Positions 1-7,714 of a stretch of 7,714 nt of DNA are shown here, piece by piece. Under the pieces are notes generated by a model that ran no database searches, was not told the DNA's origin, and saw only the letters and a program-made list of their open reading frames with translations. Position 1 is the first letter of the stretch, and every line of letters begins with the position of its first letter. The stretch is from Clostridia bacterium (GTDB lineage: Bacteria; Bacillota_A; Clostridia; Oscillospirales; CAG-272). The translations under genes were made by a program, and so were the position numbers. The DNA lies in NCBI GenBank assembly GCA_017407725.1, contig JAFQWB010000051.1:1-7714 (forward strand), in the 5' to 3' direction.

Positions 1-3000
1 ATTTCAAATCCAAAATTGTCATTACCTATATAGACAATTGGAGAATTCAGACCCGCAATTGCGTAATACTCCGTAGTTCTTTCGGTATCATAGTTCAGCT
101 CATCGGTTAGCAGATAATTGCCTGTATAGCATTTATTTATAAGCAAATCACAATCTAGATCGAGATCATCTACTCCACCATACATACTACTTGTCTTTGC
201 CAAATCATGATCACACAACATATGCTGAACACTGGTAGCGTTCGAAGCATCCGCCAATCCCGAACCCCAATGTGGAGTATCGATGGTTATAAGGCGGCGA
301 ATATTTTCATCCTTGCCTATATTTTCGATATAGTATCTGGCAACAAGCCCGCCCATACTGTGAGCAACAATGTCAATACAGTAATTAGAATTTGGTGTTA
401 TACCGTTTACCTTGCCGAAAAAGCTTGCTTTAGCTTTGGTTGTACCATTCAAGCGTATATCGTTTGCAAGATTCTGTAAATATACGTCAAACTTATTTGC
501 ACTATGAATTACCGCATCTTGATTTGGGTAATTAAACACAAACAAATCTTCATTGACTGTATAGCCTTGCTGAACCAAATAATATGCTAAATTTCCGCCT
601 TGAGAATGTGCTTCGTCATTCGGACCATTAAAAACATCTATTATTTCTTGTGTTGCCACATCTGTATATACAAGCCCGCCCAAAGTTGTCGCATTTATCG
701 AGCTGTCAAAATGATTGTTATCCTTATCATCGGTATCGGAAGGATCAACGTATACTCTTGTTTCTGCTCCCCACAAAGTAAATGAATTATCCTTTCTTCC
801 GTGTATAAGCATTACGGCAGGTCTATATACCTCAACATTACAGCTTGTGCTCCAGACAGTGTTTGAACTTTGGATATACTTAGCTGTAACTGTAACTGTT
901 CCTACAGATACACCTGTAAGAACTCCGGTTTGAGAATTGATAGTCGCGCTTCCCGTTCCGTTCGTTACAGACCACACAATGCCGTTTTGTCCGTTTACAT
1001 CATCATAGCTCGAATACATTACTGCATCAAAATCAAAGGTGTTTCCAACAGCAAGTGCATCTGTGCTTTCCTTGAGTGTCACTCCGTTATACGATGCAGC
1101 TATTTCGTTGATTTCCCATCTCTGTATGGCAGCACCGGGCGAAGAATCATATATACCAAGTCTGATATTCGTTTCATATGCGCTATCGTATATAAGCACC
1201 TTGGAATTCACGTGTCTGTATATACAGTATCCCATATCATCTGCTTTTATCTTCCATGTCGAAAGTGTATTTACCCCACTATCGGACGTTCCGATATCGC
1301 TCATTACAATTCCGTTACCCTGCTCGGTCCACGCCTTTCTGCTATCAAGCATAGAGCGAATGATATAGTTATCATTTCCTATATACTTTATCTTAAACAT
1401 TGCATATCTCTCATTTGACGTAGGCAGCGTACTTCTGCTGTTTGCCTCAAGATACGCGTTATCATAGAGAGCATTGGGATCGGCATACTGTATTCTGTAA
1501 TTATTTGCGGCACTCTTCATGTAGTATACGCCTTCTTTAATTACTACGTATACGTTTACAGAATAAACGTCTTCACTTCCGTCTGTATGAGTTACCGTTG
1601 CATTTATGACCGTGTATCCCGCCTTGTTTGTGCTGACAACTCCGTTAGAGCCTACTTCTGCAACTACCGTATTAGTAGACTCCCAACTAACATTATCTCC
1701 GAAATTATCTACAGTACAATAAAATGACATCCAATCTTCATTTTCATAAAGAATGAATTCTTCATTATTTTCATCAGCTTCTCTGATATCAACTATAGCA
1801 TTAACGTTGCTTCCGCCCGACTCTATTTCCCAAAGCTGGCCTACGCTTCCGTGAAAGGCGCTCAGATATACGTTTCCTGTAGCATCTACGGACGAGGTGC
1901 TTGATGAGCCGTTATGATCATCACGTACGGTCAATGCGCAATTCGGCTCATACGCCGATACTATCTTATAATATCCGCTGTCACTGTCTATCGCAAATAT
2001 CCAGTCTTGATTTTCAGGTCTGCTCGCACTATAGCTTGTGAGCTGTACGTTTACTTCCGCAGTCTCACTCGATCCGATAAGACTATTATATGCAAAGGAA
2101 ATGCACTTAGTGTTTCCTATTCCATTATTATCGGTAACAGTCTTTATGCGGAATCCTTCGGTTGCAGAGTCATATTCAAGTCTGAACGCCTGAGTGCTTG
2201 TATTGTTCTTTGCATACTGATATACGTTATAAGCGGATGCCGAAGCTGTGATATATTTGCCACTTCCCACATTCTTAAAGCTGTATACTGCTCCGTCCTT
2301 TATTCCTCCGTATGGCTCATATGAGTATTCAATTACCATCGTAGGTCTATACGATGCAGTAGTGTATTCCGAAGAATAGATCGGCGTATGATAATTCGAC
2401 GTTATTGTCGTATATCCTATCTTGAATCCGTTCCATTCCGAGCTCTTAAAGAAATCGGATATTCTTCCGTATTCCATTCTCTTCTCGCTCATCCACGAGG
2501 TAAGATCGATAGAATATTTTGAATAGGAGTTAACTACACTTCCGTTATTCGCGCTTGATATCAGGGTTGTCTGCGGCTGTGTATCATAAGTTATCGTGTC
2601 CGCATCCCACTCTTCATCTGCCGAATACACACTTAGTACCGGCTTAGCTGTGGTATTCATTCTGAAATTAAACGATGCGCTGTTTACATAATACGCTTCG
2701 TCAATGTCAATAAGCTTCTTTATTTTTATATAGGCATAGTAATCCTCGCCGTATCTGTTGCCTATAAGAAGCATAGTCTCTGTAGGTCTTGTTGAATTTG
2801 CACCATCGTTTTGATGTACGTAAGTATCCTCATAATTGCTCGTATAGTTTCTTGATGTAAACGAGGGGTCTATTACTACAGGATACTCTCTTTCATCGCT
2901 ATTAAGCCATTCTTCGCTCGGTGTATAGGTTACAAGTGTCTTTCCATCCTTACTAAACAGCATTACACTTATTTCGTCCGACACATCGCCCTTGGCATCC

Positions 3001-3803
3001 ATCATCCAAGGTGCTCCGAGAGTGAATATACATTCCCCTTCTCTATTTACAAAGGGTACTGTGTTATCATCATTCTTTACTGCATAAAGTCCCTCTGCAT
3101 TCACAATCATAGTATATGATTTTATTGCATCGGCTGACTTAAGTATTACGTCTTCCTTTACCTTTCCGTGGTATACTGAATAATTAACGTCTACGTTCTC
3201 TGTAAAAATATTATTATAGCTGAGGGCTGATACCGATTTTCCCTCGTTTGATATATTACTGAGGGTTTTAACCTCGTTTTCATCGGAAGCCGCATGCACC
3301 TTTGCGTTCACTTTAGATATTGTTAGCTCTGCATCTTTAATATTTCCGCCCTTTAAGGACAGACCTTTATCAAAGGACAAGCTCCACGATAACTTATATT
3401 CTCCCTCTTCTATAGATACAAGAGAATTATCGTTTGCCTTCTCTGCAAACTGTGTTTTAAATATTTCATTGTTCGACTGATATACACCCTCACTTAACGT
3501 AAAGGTATTGTCTACCTCTTTCCATTCTCCGTCTTCTTCATAATGAATCTGATCGGAATATATTACCGCATATCTTCTTCCATCAGGAGTAACGTAATGC
3601 TTTGAGAATTCGTTTCTTTTGCTTACGTCCTCCTCAAGAACGGGGTCTGAGTCAAGCTCATTTAAGGCATCTGAAGGCAAGATATCTTTTTCTTCTGCCG
3701 CAGAAAAGATTCCTGATGCAAGAACCCCAAGCGGACATATCTGCAGTAACATGGTTAGTGTGATAATGATTGATACTATCTGTGAAAAAATTCTTTTTTT
3801 CAT
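1..3803 (-). CDS. Secreted multidomain lipase-like alpha/beta hydrolase with DNRLRE, ricin and Ig-like modules (3' end outside window)
   Basis: One uninterrupted frame of 1267 codons runs off the left edge; the frame was checked at many points and shows no frameshift. ATG at 3803 follows AAAGGGG (3813-3819) with 9 nt spacing. Residues 1-29 are a signal peptide (MKKR, hydrophobic core, cleavage near VLA29). Residues ~40-317 resemble the N-terminal part of clostridial RHS/YD proteins (YVTPDGRRYAVIYSD, EWKEVDNTF, ending YPVVIDPS). Residues ~318-500 look like a DNRLRE region (EDTYV, SVYSADEEWDADTITYDTQP). Ricin-like beta-trefoils lie at ~504-661 (QLW658) and ~758-900 (QRW896). Ig-like (Big_2-type) domains lie at ~665-755 and ~903-993. 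An alpha/beta hydrolase starts at ~997: oxyanion-region MLIHG (His1001), nucleophile elbow AHSMGG with Ser1149, then ITIDTPHWGSG. The AXSXG form also occurs in Bacillus LipA-type lipases. The catalytic Asp and His probably lie past the window edge. It is expected to be exported and to hydrolyse an ester; the substrate is unknown, and the ricin-like modules suggest glycan binding. A phospholipase or other esterase is possible. Confidence 0.88.
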   Translation of the reverse strand, partial: MKKRIFSQIVSIIITLTMLLQICPLGVLASGIFSAAEEKDILPSDALNELDSDPVLEEDVSKRNEFSKHYVTPDGRRYAVIYSDQIHYEEDGEWKEVDNTFTLSEGVYQSNNEIFKTQFAEKANDNSLVSIEEGEYKLSWSLSFDKGLSLKGGNIKDAELTISKVNAKVHAASDENEVKTLSNISNEGKSVSALSYNNIFTENVDVNYSVYHGKVKEDVILKSADAIKSYTMIVNAEGLYAVKNDDNTVPFVNREGECIFTLGAPWMMDAKGDVSDEISVMLFSKDGKTLVTYTPSEEWLNSDEREYPVVIDPSFTSRNYTSNYEDTYVHQNDGANSTRPTETMLLIGNRYGEDYYAYIKIKKLIDIDEAYYVNSASFNFRMNTTAKPVLSVYSADEEWDADTITYDTQPQTTLISSANNGSVVNSYSKYSIDLTSWMSEKRMEYGRISDFFKSSEWNGFKIGYTTITSNYHTPIYSSEYTTASYRPTMVIEYSYEPYGGIKDGAVYSFKNVGSGKYITASASAYNVYQYAKNNTSTQAFRLEYDSATEGFRIKTVTDNNGIGNTKCISFAYNSLIGSSETAEVNVQLTSYSASRPENQDWIFAIDSDSGYYKIVSAYEPNCALTVRDDHNGSSSTSSVDATGNVYLSAFHGSVGQLWEIESGGSNVNAIVDIREADENNEEFILYENEDWMSFYCTVDNFGDNVSWESTNTVVAEVGSNGVVSTNKAGYTVINATVTHTDGSEDVYSVNVYVVIKEGVYYMKSAANNYRIQYADPNALYDNAYLEANSRSTLPTSNERYAMFKIKYIGNDNYIIRSMLDSRKAWTEQGNGIVMSDIGTSDSGVNTLSTWKIKADDMGYCIYRHVNSKVLIYDSAYETNIRLGIYDSSPGAAIQRWEINEIAASYNGVTLKESTDALAVGNTFDFDAVMYSSYDDVNGQNGIVWSVTNGTGSATINSQTGVLTGVSVGTVTVTAKYIQSSNTVWSTSCNVEVYRPAVMLIHGRKDNSFTLWGAETRVYVDPSDTDDKDNNHFDSSINATTLGGLVYTDVATQEIIDVFNGPNDEAHSQGGNLAYYLVQQGYTVNEDLFVFNYPNQDAVIHSANKFDVYLQNLANDIRLNGTTKAKASFFGKVNGITPNSNYCIDIVAHSMGGLVARYYIENIGKDENIRRLITIDTPHWGSGLADASNATSVQHMLCDHDLAKTSSMYGGVDDLDLDCDLLINKCYTGNYLLTDELNYDTERTTEYYAIAGLNSPIVYIGNDNFGFE

Positions 3804-4020: not shown

Positions 4021-7000
4021 TTAGTCAACAAGCGTGATAGCAACCTTAACGGTGTGCTCACCAACCTCGATCTCTGTCTTGTCAGCTCCCTCGGGCATTG
4101 CATCAACGCCGATAACGAGAAGCTCTGACATTACTGTATCAAGATTATCCGAAACGATCTTTTCGATCTCTTCATCGCCGTATTCAAGTGCAATTCTGAT
4201 GCGGCTTTCGATCTTAAGACCCATATCCTTTCTGTAAACCTGAAGCTTTCTGATAAGGCTTCTTACCATATACTCTTCTTCAAGCTTTTCGTCAATTGCA
4301 AGAGAAAGAACAAGAGTGATATCTCCGTCAGCCTCGATTGCATAATCGTTCTTTGCAACAAGAGCAATATTGAAGAGATCCTTTGTTATCTCGGGCTCAA
4401 ATTCGTCAAACTTGACCTTGCCCTCTGCATTAAGAGCAGCATATACCTCTGCAACCTTTTCATCAGAAAGACCTGCAACAAATTCCTTGAACTTATTAAC
4501 GTCCTTTCTGAGAACGCCGCCTGCCTTACCGAAGTTAACAGAGAGGCTGGGAGTTACGAATGAATCTGTATTTTCAACGAAGGAAATATTCTTGATATTT
4601 ACCTCGCTCTTGATAGCAGCATCAAAGATCTCAACTGCGCCCTTGATCTCATCGTTTGCAACGAGATAGAGATCGGAAAGAGGCTGCTTGATCATTATAG
4701 CCTTTTCGTTACGGATCTTCTGAACGAGCGCGATAATATCTCTTGCAAGAGCTGTCTTGCCTATAAGATCATCACCGAAGGAAAGCTCAAGACCTGTGGG
4801 GAAGTCGGAAAGGTGAACGCTCTCACACTCGTTCTTTTCGAATTCTCTTACAGAATCGTGCCAGATAAAGTCTGTCATAAAGGGAATGATGGGAGCCATT
4901 ACTCTTACAACGCTCTTGATAACCGTGTAGAGAGTGTAGTAAGCAACCTGCTTTTCCTCAGGGGTTCCCTTCCAGAATCTCTTTCTGTTAATTCTGATAT
5001 ACCAGTTATTAATATCGTCAACAAGAGCCTCAAATGCCATAAGAACAGGCTGATACATCTGATTTGAGTAGTTCTCGTTTGCGATCTTTATAAACTCGTT
5101 TGTTCTGAGAAGTGCCCACTTATCGCTTGCCGAAAGCTCATCGTCGGAGGGCTTATAGCCGTCGAGATTCGGCTTATCTATGCTTGCGTAAGTGTTGAAG
5201 AATGTGTATGTGTTATAGAATGCAAGAATTCTTCTCTTGGCATCGTCGCCGAGAGTGTATCCGAAACGGAGGTCGTTAACCGACGTTGTTCCTGCATACA
5301 GATATCTGATGGTATCTGCGCCCATAACCTTTATAGCGTCGTTAAGAACGATATTCTTTTCTTTTCCCGCGCTCTTTGAGAACTTTTCTCCGTTCTCTCT
5401 TACAACGCTTCCGTGAGTTACTACCTTCTTATAAGGTGCGCATCCCTCAAGCGTTACGCTCATAAAGAGGATGGAATAGAACCAGAGTCTTACCTGCTCT
5501 ACCATCTCAATTACAACGTCGCTGGGGAAGTTCTTTCTCCAGAACTCTCTGTCAGAGAAGTACTTCTTTGTAACGAAGGGAGTGATACCTGCGTCAAGCC
5601 AGCAGTCACCAACCTCGGTAACTCTCTTAACCTTTGCTCCGCAGTCACAGGTTATCTCAATATCGTCTATCCAAGGTCTGTGGAAGTGAGGAATCTTTTC
5701 AACCTCTTCCTTAGAACTTCTTTCTATAAGCTCCTCGCGGCTTCCGATAACTGTTATCTTGCCGCAGTCGGGACATACGTAGAAAGGAAGGGGGAGACCG
5801 TAGAAACGCTTTCTTGAAATGTTCCAGTCGGTCATATTGTTGAGCCAGTCGATCATTCTCTTCTTAACGTGAGCGGGCTGCCACTCAACAGTTTCAACTG
5901 CCTCAAGCATCTTGGGTCTTATCTCGTCGCTCTTGATGTACCACTCGTCAACGAGCTTGAAGACGATGTCTGTCTTACATCTCCAGCAATGAGCATACTT
6001 ATGTGTATATTCTTCGGTAGCATACATATTTCCGCGTGCTCTGAGCTCTGCGAATATATCCTCTGCAACCTCTGTTGTTGTCTTTCCTGCAAGGTCACCG
6101 AAGCCCTCGATTATTCTGCCTGCCTCATCGATAGGAGAAATTGCGGGAATATCGTACTTGAGTCCTAAGTTAAAGTCCTCCTCACCGCATCCGGGAGCGA
6201 TGTGAACAAGTCCTGTACCCTCGGAATCAACGATGTCCTCCCACGGAATAACCTTGTGAGTGAACTTCTGAACCTCAAACTCGGGGAATATGGTGGTATA
6301 GGTAAGTCCGAGAAGCTCCTTACCCTTTACAGTCTTGATTATCTCTTTTATGTTCTTTCCGATAACCTTCTTAACTATCGATGCACCGCAGATAACAGGT
6401 CTTCCGCCCTCTTTAAGCGCAACGAAGGAATAGTCAAGCTCGGGATTTACCGCAACTGCACAGTTGGAGGTAAGTGTCCAGGGTGTTGTTGTCCAAACGA
6501 GAAGATCTGCCTCGATCTCGTTTATGGGCATACGGAAGAATACCGCATTGCAGGTAACCTCGCTGTAGCTTCCGCTCATTTCGTGTTCGGAAAGAGAGGT
6601 TCCGCATCTGGGGCACCACGACATAACTCTGTGCTTCTTTACAAGCCAGCCGAGATCGTCACACTTCTTAAGGAAGTGCCAGATTCCGAGAATGTTATCG
6701 TCTGTATTTGTGAAATAAGAATTGCTCCAGTCCATCCACTGACCGAGATCCTTACTCTGCTCTGTAATTACTGCCGCATACTTCTGAACTCTTGACATAC
6801 AGGTGTTTGTGAAGTTGTCCATACCGAACTTTACGATATCGCTCTTATCCTTGAATCCGAGCTGCTTTTCAACCTCAACCTCAACCCAAAGACCCTGCGC
6901 GTCAAAGCCGTTCTGATAGGTTCCGTCCTTGCCGAGCATGCTGTTGTATCTGAGTGTTATATCCTTGAGAGTTCTTCCGAACGCATGGTGAATACCCATG

Positions 7001-7158
7001 GCGTTGTTTGCGGTTATAGGACCGTCAAGAAAACGGAAATATTCATTTCCTTTATTCTTTGCGCGAAGCTTTTCAAAATAATTATTCTTCTCCCATAAGG
7101 CCTTGACCTGACCTTCGGCAGATTCGAAATTGTAACCCTTTTCGTCTTTTATCATCAT
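4021..7158 (-). CDS. ileS: Isoleucyl-tRNA synthetase, type 2, with swapped GIHH signature motif
   Basis: Class I synthetase that charges tRNA-Ile with isoleucine in the cytoplasm; 1045 aa from the chosen ATG, near the usual IleRS2 length. Residues from that Met: the HIGH signature is GIHH (55-58) before AFGRTLKD; CP1 editing domain with WTTTPWT (232-238) and GTGLVHIAPG, whose His319 and Asp328 match editing residues H333 and D342 of the E. coli enzyme by my alignment; Cys pairs 182/185 with 391/394 and 462/465 with 504/506, placed as the two zinc sites I recall in Thermus IleRS; NISRKRFYGLPLP; GDCWLDAG; KFSKS (592-596) for KMSKS; anticodon-binding part from about residue 665 (WYIRINRKRFW). 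The C-terminus has no cysteine zinc ribbon, unlike type 1. The start follows AGGAGG by 11 nt; a GTG 15 codons upstream lacks a ribosome site and lies at the predicted transcript start. A strong terminator follows the stop. No T-box is present. Mupirocin resistance is inferred from family knowledge. Confidence 0.96.
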   Translation of the reverse strand: MMIKDEKGYNFESAEGQVKALWEKNNYFEKLRAKNKGNEYFRFLDGPITANNAMGIHHAFGRTLKDITLRYNSMLGKDGTYQNGFDAQGLWVEVEVEKQLGFKDKSDIVKFGMDNFTNTCMSRVQKYAAVITEQSKDLGQWMDWSNSYFTNTDDNILGIWHFLKKCDDLGWLVKKHRVMSWCPRCGTSLSEHEMSGSYSEVTCNAVFFRMPINEIEADLLVWTTTPWTLTSNCAVAVNPELDYSFVALKEGGRPVICGASIVKKVIGKNIKEIIKTVKGKELLGLTYTTIFPEFEVQKFTHKVIPWEDIVDSEGTGLVHIAPGCGEEDFNLGLKYDIPAISPIDEAGRIIEGFGDLAGKTTTEVAEDIFAELRARGNMYATEEYTHKYAHCWRCKTDIVFKLVDEWYIKSDEIRPKMLEAVETVEWQPAHVKKRMIDWLNNMTDWNISRKRFYGLPLPFYVCPDCGKITVIGSREELIERSSKEEVEKIPHFHRPWIDDIEITCDCGAKVKRVTEVGDCWLDAGITPFVTKKYFSDREFWRKNFPSDVVIEMVEQVRLWFYSILFMSVTLEGCAPYKKVVTHGSVVRENGEKFSKSAGKEKNIVLNDAIKVMGADTIRYLYAGTTSVNDLRFGYTLGDDAKRRILAFYNTYTFFNTYASIDKPNLDGYKPSDDELSASDKWALLRTNEFIKIANENYSNQMYQPVLMAFEALVDDINNWYIRINRKRFWKGTPEEKQVAYYTLYTVIKSVVRVMAPIIPFMTDFIWHDSVREFEKNECESVHLSDFPTGLELSFGDDLIGKTALARDIIALVQKIRNEKAIMIKQPLSDLYLVANDEIKGAVEIFDAAIKSEVNIKNISFVENTDSFVTPSLSVNFGKAGGVLRKDVNKFKEFVAGLSDEKVAEVYAALNAEGKVKFDEFEPEITKDLFNIALVAKNDYAIEADGDITLVLSLAIDEKLEEEYMVRSLIRKLQVYRKDMGLKIESRIRIALEYGDEEIEKIVSDNLDTVMSELLVIGVDAMPEGADKTEIEVGEHTVKVAITLVD

Positions 7159-7169
7159 AACGGGGTCAT

Positions 7170-7175
7170 CCTCCT
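7170..7175 (-). promoter_or_regulatory. Ribosome binding site that fixes the ileS start
   Basis: A perfect AGGAGG on the minus strand lies 11 nt before ATG at 7158-7156, with a second ATG directly behind it (7155-7153). The alternative in-frame GTG at 7203 has only A/T-rich DNA upstream and would place this Shine-Dalgarno inside the coding sequence. The start at 7158 also puts the zinc and active-site residues at positions close to those I recall for Thermus IleRS. The spacing is slightly long, so initiation at either ATG is possible. Confidence 0.8.
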
Positions 7176-7211
7176 GTTCACGTCTTTTATATGTTACTTT
7201 CACAATTTATT

Positions 7212-7258: not shown

Positions 7259-7714
7259 TCAGCGCTCAAAGGTCAAAATTGAATGCAAATTATCCTCTTC
7301 ATCCTTCATAACGACAGTTATGACCCCGTCGCTCACCGAATACGAGGCTTTTATACTCTCACCGTACTTATACTGCTTCTGGTAATTTATACGTATCTTT
7401 GAGAACTTCCCCTCGCCGTAAAGCTCATCGGGAAGAACCTCAAGTGCCGCCGAAAGATATGCGGTATTGTGCATATGCTCACCTGTATCTATATCGGCAC
7501 GTCTTACGGCAAAGGTCTTTTCACCGAGAAGCTCTGACGGCAGCTTTATTCTTTCAATATCGGAATCGAACACCGCATGCTCCGGCTCTGACTCAAGTCT
7601 TGATTCATACATTTCGGCAGGCGGAATAAGCTTACCCTCAAAAAGATCGAAAAGCACCCACTTTGATGTCGCTCTTGCAAGAAGCTCTCCACTCTCCGAG
7701 AGCATCTCATAATC
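7259..7714 (-). CDS. Acyl-ACP thioesterase, C-terminal half (5' end outside window)
   Basis: The 151 visible residues are open to the right edge: codons for Asp-Tyr-Glu precede the first internal ATG (7705), so that ATG is not the start. The fragment begins in the first hotdog domain with YEMLSESGELLARATSKWVL, typical of the end of that domain in FatA/FatB-like bacterial acyl-ACP thioesterases. A linker follows, and then the second hotdog domain, opening with FAVRRADIDTGEHMHNTAYL (residues 68-87). Such cytosolic enzymes hydrolyse acyl-ACP to release free fatty acid and end chain elongation. The second-domain motif differs from the common D-x-N-x-H-V-N-N: Gly78 sits where Asn is usual, while Asp76, His80 and Asn83 are kept. 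The stop TGA lies 100 bp before the ileS ATG. Family assignment is firm; acyl-chain preference and activity cannot be read from this fragment. Confidence 0.85.
   Translation of the reverse strand, partial: DYEMLSESGELLARATSKWVLFDLFEGKLIPPAEMYESRLESEPEHAVFDSDIERIKLPSELLGEKTFAVRRADIDTGEHMHNTAYLSAALEVLPDELYGEGKFSKIRINYQKQYKYGESIKASYSVSDGVITVVMKDEEDNLHSILTFER

Follow-up and report, generated by a model that had tools for sequence, protein, structure and literature searches.

The two class I signatures of aminoacyl-tRNA synthetases, HXGH and KMSKS, are textbook constants. What is to be made of an isoleucyl-tRNA synthetase (IleRS) gene in which the first reads GIHH and the second KFSKS? Is its product a working enzyme, is it the only IleRS of its host, and would it protect that host from mupirocin? 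These questions are raised by a locus in the window, by which we mean the whole stretch of 7,714 nucleotides analyzed here, from a Clostridia bacterium. The gene and its probable ribosome-binding site are placed as follows.

4021..7158, minus strand: ileS, type-2 isoleucyl-tRNA synthetase, 1045 codons plus stop from the probable ATG
7170..7175, minus strand: AGGAGG, probable ribosome-binding site of ileS, 11 bases before the first of two ATG codons

The open frame extends over 4021-7203 on the minus strand (1060 codons, up to a GTG at 7203), and translation probably starts not at this GTG but at the ATG at 7156-7158 or 7153-7155, as suggested by the AGGAGG upstream and by a 99% identical homologue (P0001) that begins MIKDEKG. 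The frame scores 711.8 bits against the NCBIfam equivalog model for ileS (TIGR00392, cut-off 621.4), matches the Pfam class I catalytic, anticodon-binding and DUF5915 domains, and over its full length finds type-2 enzymes as its top PDB matches, the best being 8C8W (1.1e-180). An exact HXGH plus KMSKS rule would leave the protein outside class I (GIHH, KFSKS), yet whole-length homology assigns it to this class. Its sequence also retains the Cys clusters and WTTTPW, which we take to be the editing-site motif. In an AlphaFold model, pLDDT falls below 50 at 56-70, 95-109, 530-568 and 586-598, around the active site.

6985..6996, minus strand: first class I signature, swapped, GIHH for HXGH (T. 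thermophilus positions 54-57), from translation and structure-sequence alignment

The codons of this signature (GGT ATT CAC CAT) read Gly-Ile-His-His, and the N-terminal part of the protein aligns without gaps with T. thermophilus IleRS (1ILE) and P. megaterium IleRS2, which places GIHH over HVGH 54-57, and over GVHH of the P. megaterium IleRS2 mutant 8C8W. The preliminary description of this DNA had read the motif as HIGH with its first and third positions exchanged and the last His kept; translation and alignment bear this out, and the ungapped alignment to both enzymes rules out a true HXGH elsewhere in the protein. Gly or Ala at position 1 of the HXGH site, with His at positions 3 and 4, defines the GXHH form of IleRS2, and this is the combination found here. 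The same description had called the flanks GPITANN and QNGFDAQGLWVEVEVEK intact, which is wrong: they are altered, clade-specific forms of GPPTANG and GWDxHGLPVE.

To judge from its homologues, the swap is fixed in close kin. Among the 120 homologues listed, 63 carry GIHH and 56 GVHH, P0071 lacking the N-terminus, so every one of the 119 best homologues with an N-terminus carries GXHH; these counts describe the clade and not all IleRS, since the search started from the window and only the 8000 candidates with the most words in common were scored, and homologue counts throughout are inflated by near copies and by selection, the searches being window-seeded or motif-filtered. Position 1 can also change: six loci from Clostridia or Bacilli MAGs, among 80 that were partly motif-selected, have Lys or Arg there (KLHH in L004, L006, L013 and L055, RLHH in L037, KIHH in L038), with His kept at positions 3 and 4 in all six. 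This K/RXHH form lies beyond the published G/AXHH, and would be consistent with a catalytic role shifted to position 3, leaving position 1 free.

How do these sequences relate to the enzymes already described? In a survey of 379 IleRS (Brkic et al., 2023; PMC10485003), the main text counts 86 type-2 enzymes with G/AXHH and 77 with HXGH, and reports that G/AXHH never occurs in type 1 and is present in two type-2 clades, the smaller of which is rooted with GXHH (node 747), node 744 corresponding to Deinococcus-Thermus and node 658 to a GXHH subclade of the major clade. In our tree (70 IleRS of 96 prepared rows, quick IQ-TREE), 67 type-2 rows, the window among them, are split from 3 type-1 rows with support 100. 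The type-2 rows form one clade of 15 HXGH and 5 GXHH rows (support 97) and another of 47 rows (support 99) that includes the window and is XXHH throughout (47/47). The best tree needs two motif changes, and a tree holding all XXHH rows together is 18 log-likelihood units worse, yet the AU test (p 0.072) does not reject it, so that two origins of XXHH appear favored rather than proven.

Within the 47-row clade, the window falls into a subclade with support 100, in which 22 of the 35 rows have a named origin, Bacillota in every case; its labeled neighbors belong to this phylum too, most of them being Clostridia MAGs, in agreement with the earlier placement among Clostridia. The larger clade also holds Latescibacterota, Neomarinimicrobiota, Chloroflexota, Planctomycetota, Armatimonadota, Acidobacteriota and Aerophobetes, together with one Actinomycetota, one Heimdallarchaeota and one basal Halobacteroidaceae. 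From its motif and phyla we infer that it is probably the minor IleRS2 clade of Brkic et al. (node 747): both are type 2 and GXHH throughout, and the legend in PMC10485003 assigns Planctomycetota and Chloroflexi to a branch that diverged early in IleRS2, such phyla standing near the base of the window's clade. The proposal that the window encodes a GXHH type-2 IleRS of the kind described in that paper thus agrees with the alignment, the tree and the text of PMC10485003, to which the K/RXHH form and the Clostridia subclade are additions.

Four further stretches of the active site differ from the canonical enzyme, each located by alignment.

6880..6909, minus strand: GFDAQGLWVE for GWDxHGLPVE, clade-specific; Asp85 (T. 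thermophilus numbering) kept
5584..5604, minus strand: CWLDAGI for xWxDSGS; Trp518 kept, Ser521 to Ala
5479..5508, minus strand: EMVEQVRLWF for EGxDQTRGWF; Gly551 to Met, Asp553 to Glu, Gly557 to Leu; Gln554 and Trp558 kept (T. thermophilus numbering)
5371..5385, minus strand: second class I signature, KFSKS for KMSKS

In the same numbering, Trp84 is changed to Phe, His87 to Gln and Pro90 to Trp, and the loop after KFSKS is two residues longer than in canonical IleRS in the alignment. The residues kept (Asp85, Trp518, Gln554, Trp558) presumably hold isoleucine, and several of the changed pocket residues lie, we assume, on the adenylate side. On the alignment, the clade is changed in more than the swap, both the pocket blocks and the KMSKS loop being altered. 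Differential conservation (at least 90% one residue in the window clade, at least 85% another in the HXGH rows) singles out 33 positions between 53 window-clade rows and 34 HXGH, 5 major-clade GXHH and 3 type-1 rows, and many of them lie in the active site.

A survey of 322 distinct rows, including 108 HXGx and 210 XXHH, shows how closely these changes accompany the motif. GWDxHGLP and DQ..GW are both present in 99 of the 108 HXGx rows, one more having GWDxHGLP and a gap at the other block, and the remaining eight being other class I enzymes below the ileS cut-off (L103-L110). The replacement blocks GFDxQGxW and EMxEQ..LW occur together in 196 of the 210 XXHH rows, and neither is found in any of the 108 HXGx rows. 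Seven XXHH rows (L113, L158, L160, L164, L168, L171, L182) keep GWDxHGLP, DQ..GW and KMSK; since 196 of the other 203, the clade sequences, have both replacements instead of the canonical blocks, QNGFDAQGLWVE is no intact flank. Exact KMSKS is absent from all 203, the first Lys being kept in 106 and the second in 202; the commonest replacements are KFSKT (68), KFSKS, the form of the window (35), and RFSKS (35). Seven further XXHH rows deviate at one block: L029 and L035 have GFDAHGLP, L054 has EATEQ, and L076, L077, L078 and L080 show a third form at the second block (EFPGQFRNWF, ELPGQFRNWF). Such mixed forms should be useful for ordering the changes of the pocket.

The seven canonical-block rows resemble the window in their swapped signature and differ from it in keeping these two blocks and KMSK. 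Six of them, GIHH loci from the phylum sample described below, are only 33-34% identical to the window, and all seven would belong to the same subclade as the D. radiodurans and S. griseus enzymes, the GXHH/AXHH subclade of the major clade. The seventh, L113, comes from a record labeled Parabacteroides plasmid, perhaps a chromosome piece so labeled, and its ileS has GIHH and KMSKR. The P. megaterium GVHH protein 8C8W carries the GXHH motif at the same place as the window, but it is a laboratory mutant of an HVGH enzyme and its other blocks are canonical, whereas those of the window are altered. For the minor clade, the main text of PMC10485003 reports G/AXHH only, with no change of KMSKS or another block, while the window clade has both; nor was a description of these extra active-site changes found in the other literature surveyed. 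Among titles and abstract openings, a scope outside which most subscription journals fall, PMC10485003 alone treats the GXHH motif, and no paper appeared on GXHH in Clostridia or on KMSKS changes in the window clade.

What would the swap do to the enzyme? Exchange of the motif in the D. radiodurans, T. thermophilus and P. megaterium enzymes changes the mupirocin Ki (PMC10485003), by roughly 175 to 820 fold as computed from Table 1 of that paper, and alone affects kcat or KM at most about tenfold; the D. radiodurans and S. griseus enzymes, with a swapped signature like that of the window, have a millimolar Ki for mupirocin. By analogy with the published structure of the GXHH mutant, amino-acid activation would probably depend on the third-position His doing the catalytic work that falls to the first His in HXGH enzymes, and a His facing the adenine would exclude mupirocin, which predicts hyper-resistance with a Ki near millimolar. 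Alongside the swap, the KMSKS loop and the side of the pocket that faces ATP and ribose are altered, with the residues taken above to hold isoleucine kept in place. Our preferred reading, in which we have good confidence, is that the window encodes a working type-2 IleRS of the minor GXHH clade, most likely the sole IleRS of a gut-type Clostridia bacterium, and probably hyper-resistant to mupirocin.

By node numbers, the four assayed enzymes (DrIleRS2, PmIleRS2, TtIleRS2, SgIleRS2) appear to lie in the major clade of PMC10485003, so that perhaps no minor-clade enzyme is among those measured there; an assay of an enzyme of the window clade was not found in the literature, and the changed pocket of the clade could alter mupirocin binding either way. 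Could the swap then be unrelated to mupirocin, an ancient structural variant that drift, or some other selective pressure on the ATP site, has fixed and that the changed pocket accompanies? Such an origin would suit a swap found throughout a clade with loci from several phyla (in a search that was partly motif-selected), a ribose and ATP side changed as a block, and six relatives in which position 1 is now Lys or Arg. We nevertheless consider it unlikely, if deserving of attention, because motif exchange in three other type-2 enzymes shifts the mupirocin Ki by two to three orders of magnitude (PMC10485003). Hyper-resistance of the window clade is likely by analogy with them.

The plasmid IleRS of staphylococci, MupA and MupB, are type 2 like the window enzyme, and presumably carry HXGH. 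Kinship with mupA or mupB was considered and rejected, the window scoring 575.9 and 562.7 bits against the MupA and MupB exception models (cut-off 1900) with about 33% identity to MupA, and the gene is, as previously suggested, distinct from plasmid mupA.

Is the swapped gene the only IleRS of its host? Among 20 genomes, mostly MAGs, chosen via GXHH-type loci, it is the only ileS above the cut-off found in 18, and the other two, Defluviitaleaceae MAGs (G013, G014), pair GIHH with a second, HMGH type-2 ileS. In the order of G001 (41 genomes), 39 have a match above the cut-off, one each: 36 HXGH (one of which, L153, adjoins 1600 N), one type-1-like HLGT and two GIHH (G001, the centre, and G044); the last two genomes have one partial HIGH gene and one fragment-level match only. 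The HLGT gene (L127, in G058) is its genome's only ileS above the cut-off, in a locus with 23 N. In a set of 121 genomes of the same order centered on G003, seven, centre included, match the window above 1000 bits (G535 partially) and have no other ileS among matches down to about 148 bits, while the 23 next-best loci read are all HIGH type 2. The sets overlap: G003 and G011 of these seven are also among the 20 picked for GXHH, and G044 is also in the 41-genome set.

Further away, a phylum sample of 398 genomes gives matches above 1000 bits only in G001 (its centre) and G369, the next 28 loci read being 22 HXGH and 6 GIHH with canonical blocks. In the order of G369 (61 genomes, 51 with a match above the cut-off), the ten best matches read are type 1, and two genomes have a GVHH type-2 gene beside an HLGH type-1 ileS. 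The paired loci are the following.

L081/L101 (G014) and L082/L102 (G013): paired type-2 ileS, HMGH + GIHH
L195, 7666-10779 (G369): GVHH type-2 ileS beside type-1
L196, 3594-6716 (G464): GVHH type-2 ileS beside type-1

A run of 100 N interrupts the type-1 gene of G464; a suspicion that this gene is broken was dropped, the unmatched part lying between two matched pieces. Both GVHH genes are flanked by ordinary genes, different between the two, and the 18 flanking proteins include no mobile gene according to Pfam (2 are without a family match).

These pairs keep alive the idea that the window ileS is a second, accessory gene acquired for resistance, with a housekeeping IleRS elsewhere in the genome. 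It seems distinctly improbable, given that searches of GXHH genomes turned up no additional ileS in 18 of 20 and 7 of 7 (2 shared), many of them MAGs in which single copies and pairs both run some risk of incompleteness or contamination, and that Pfam identifies no mobile-element gene among the three main frames of the 7.7 kb window. The housekeeping role first proposed thus finds support in most of the relatives examined, from which it may be extended to the window, and it is not universal, in view of the pairs in 2 of 20 and 2 of 61 genomes; the window IleRS is, by sequence comparison, probably a housekeeping enzyme and a source of intrinsic mupirocin hyper-resistance. In the sampled relatives, the swapped gene is rare and patchy. 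This patchiness, and the fact that the resident ileS differs from order to order, are suggestive of horizontal transfer of GXHH ileS among relatives, the alternative being ancient duplication with loss. Horizontal transfer was already proposed for ileS2 in general in the text of PMC4861432, which also mentions a Loki archaeon with ileS2 beside the archaeal IleRS, and in the main text of PMC10485003 only a small Bacillaceae group is named as having both IleRS types.

Might the protein instead be a paralogue that serves some other purpose than the charging of tRNA-Ile, or has a different specificity? Deviations in both class I signatures and in two more blocks could be expected of such a protein, but most genomes examined yielded no other ileS-like gene, the protein scores above the ileS cut-off, WTTTPW (the presumed editing site) and the Cys clusters are kept, and a T-box leader precedes one relative's gene, all of which makes a paralogue very improbable. 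Sequencing or assembly error, finally, was rejected as having a negligible chance, GIHH recurring on other contigs in P0001 (99% identical) and also in P0002 (85% identical) and GXHH in all 119 listed homologues with an N-terminus, so that the preliminary description was right to discount sequencing damage.

A broader reading, to which we would give slightly less than an even chance, is that the minor IleRS2 clade is more than an IleRS with an exchanged pair of residues, and embodies a second way, arrived at in nature, of building the class I adenylation site. The catalytic His would stand at position 3, position 1 being free (occupied by Gly and later, in some Clostridia, by Lys or Arg), KMSKS would be relaxed to its nearly fixed second Lys, and the ribose-binding DQ..GW and GWDxHGLP would be replaced; the gene would move between Clostridia, displacing a resident HXGH type-2 gene or settling beside type-1, and would confer chromosomal hyper-resistance to mupirocin on its hosts. 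A natural clade that showed neither signature in exact form, and whose gene is yet the only ileS found in many genomes, asks which residues adenylation needs, and offers a route to asking how a catalytic His can move within its motif. Such a clade also points to gut bacteria expected to be immune to mupirocin even when they lack a plasmid, and suggests that a drug-insensitive ileS can live side by side with a sensitive one, perhaps even taking its place.

The surroundings of the gene vary. No T-box leader reached the gathering score in 12 of 13 sources; in the other, one lies directly before a GIHH type-2 ileS (L016, 3763-3980). At default thresholds, neither an RNA leader nor a tRNA was found in the window, where the gene upstream of ileS is cut by the edge, and its thioesterase-like and lipase-like neighbors have no matching frame in the collected relative loci (E 1e-5). 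The former (7259-7714, minus strand), just upstream of ileS on the same strand, has a C-terminal acyl-ACP thioesterase match; the latter (3-3803, minus strand), also cut by the edge, is a long protein with a signal-like start and matches to a ricin-type lectin and an alpha/beta-hydrolase (lipase-like).
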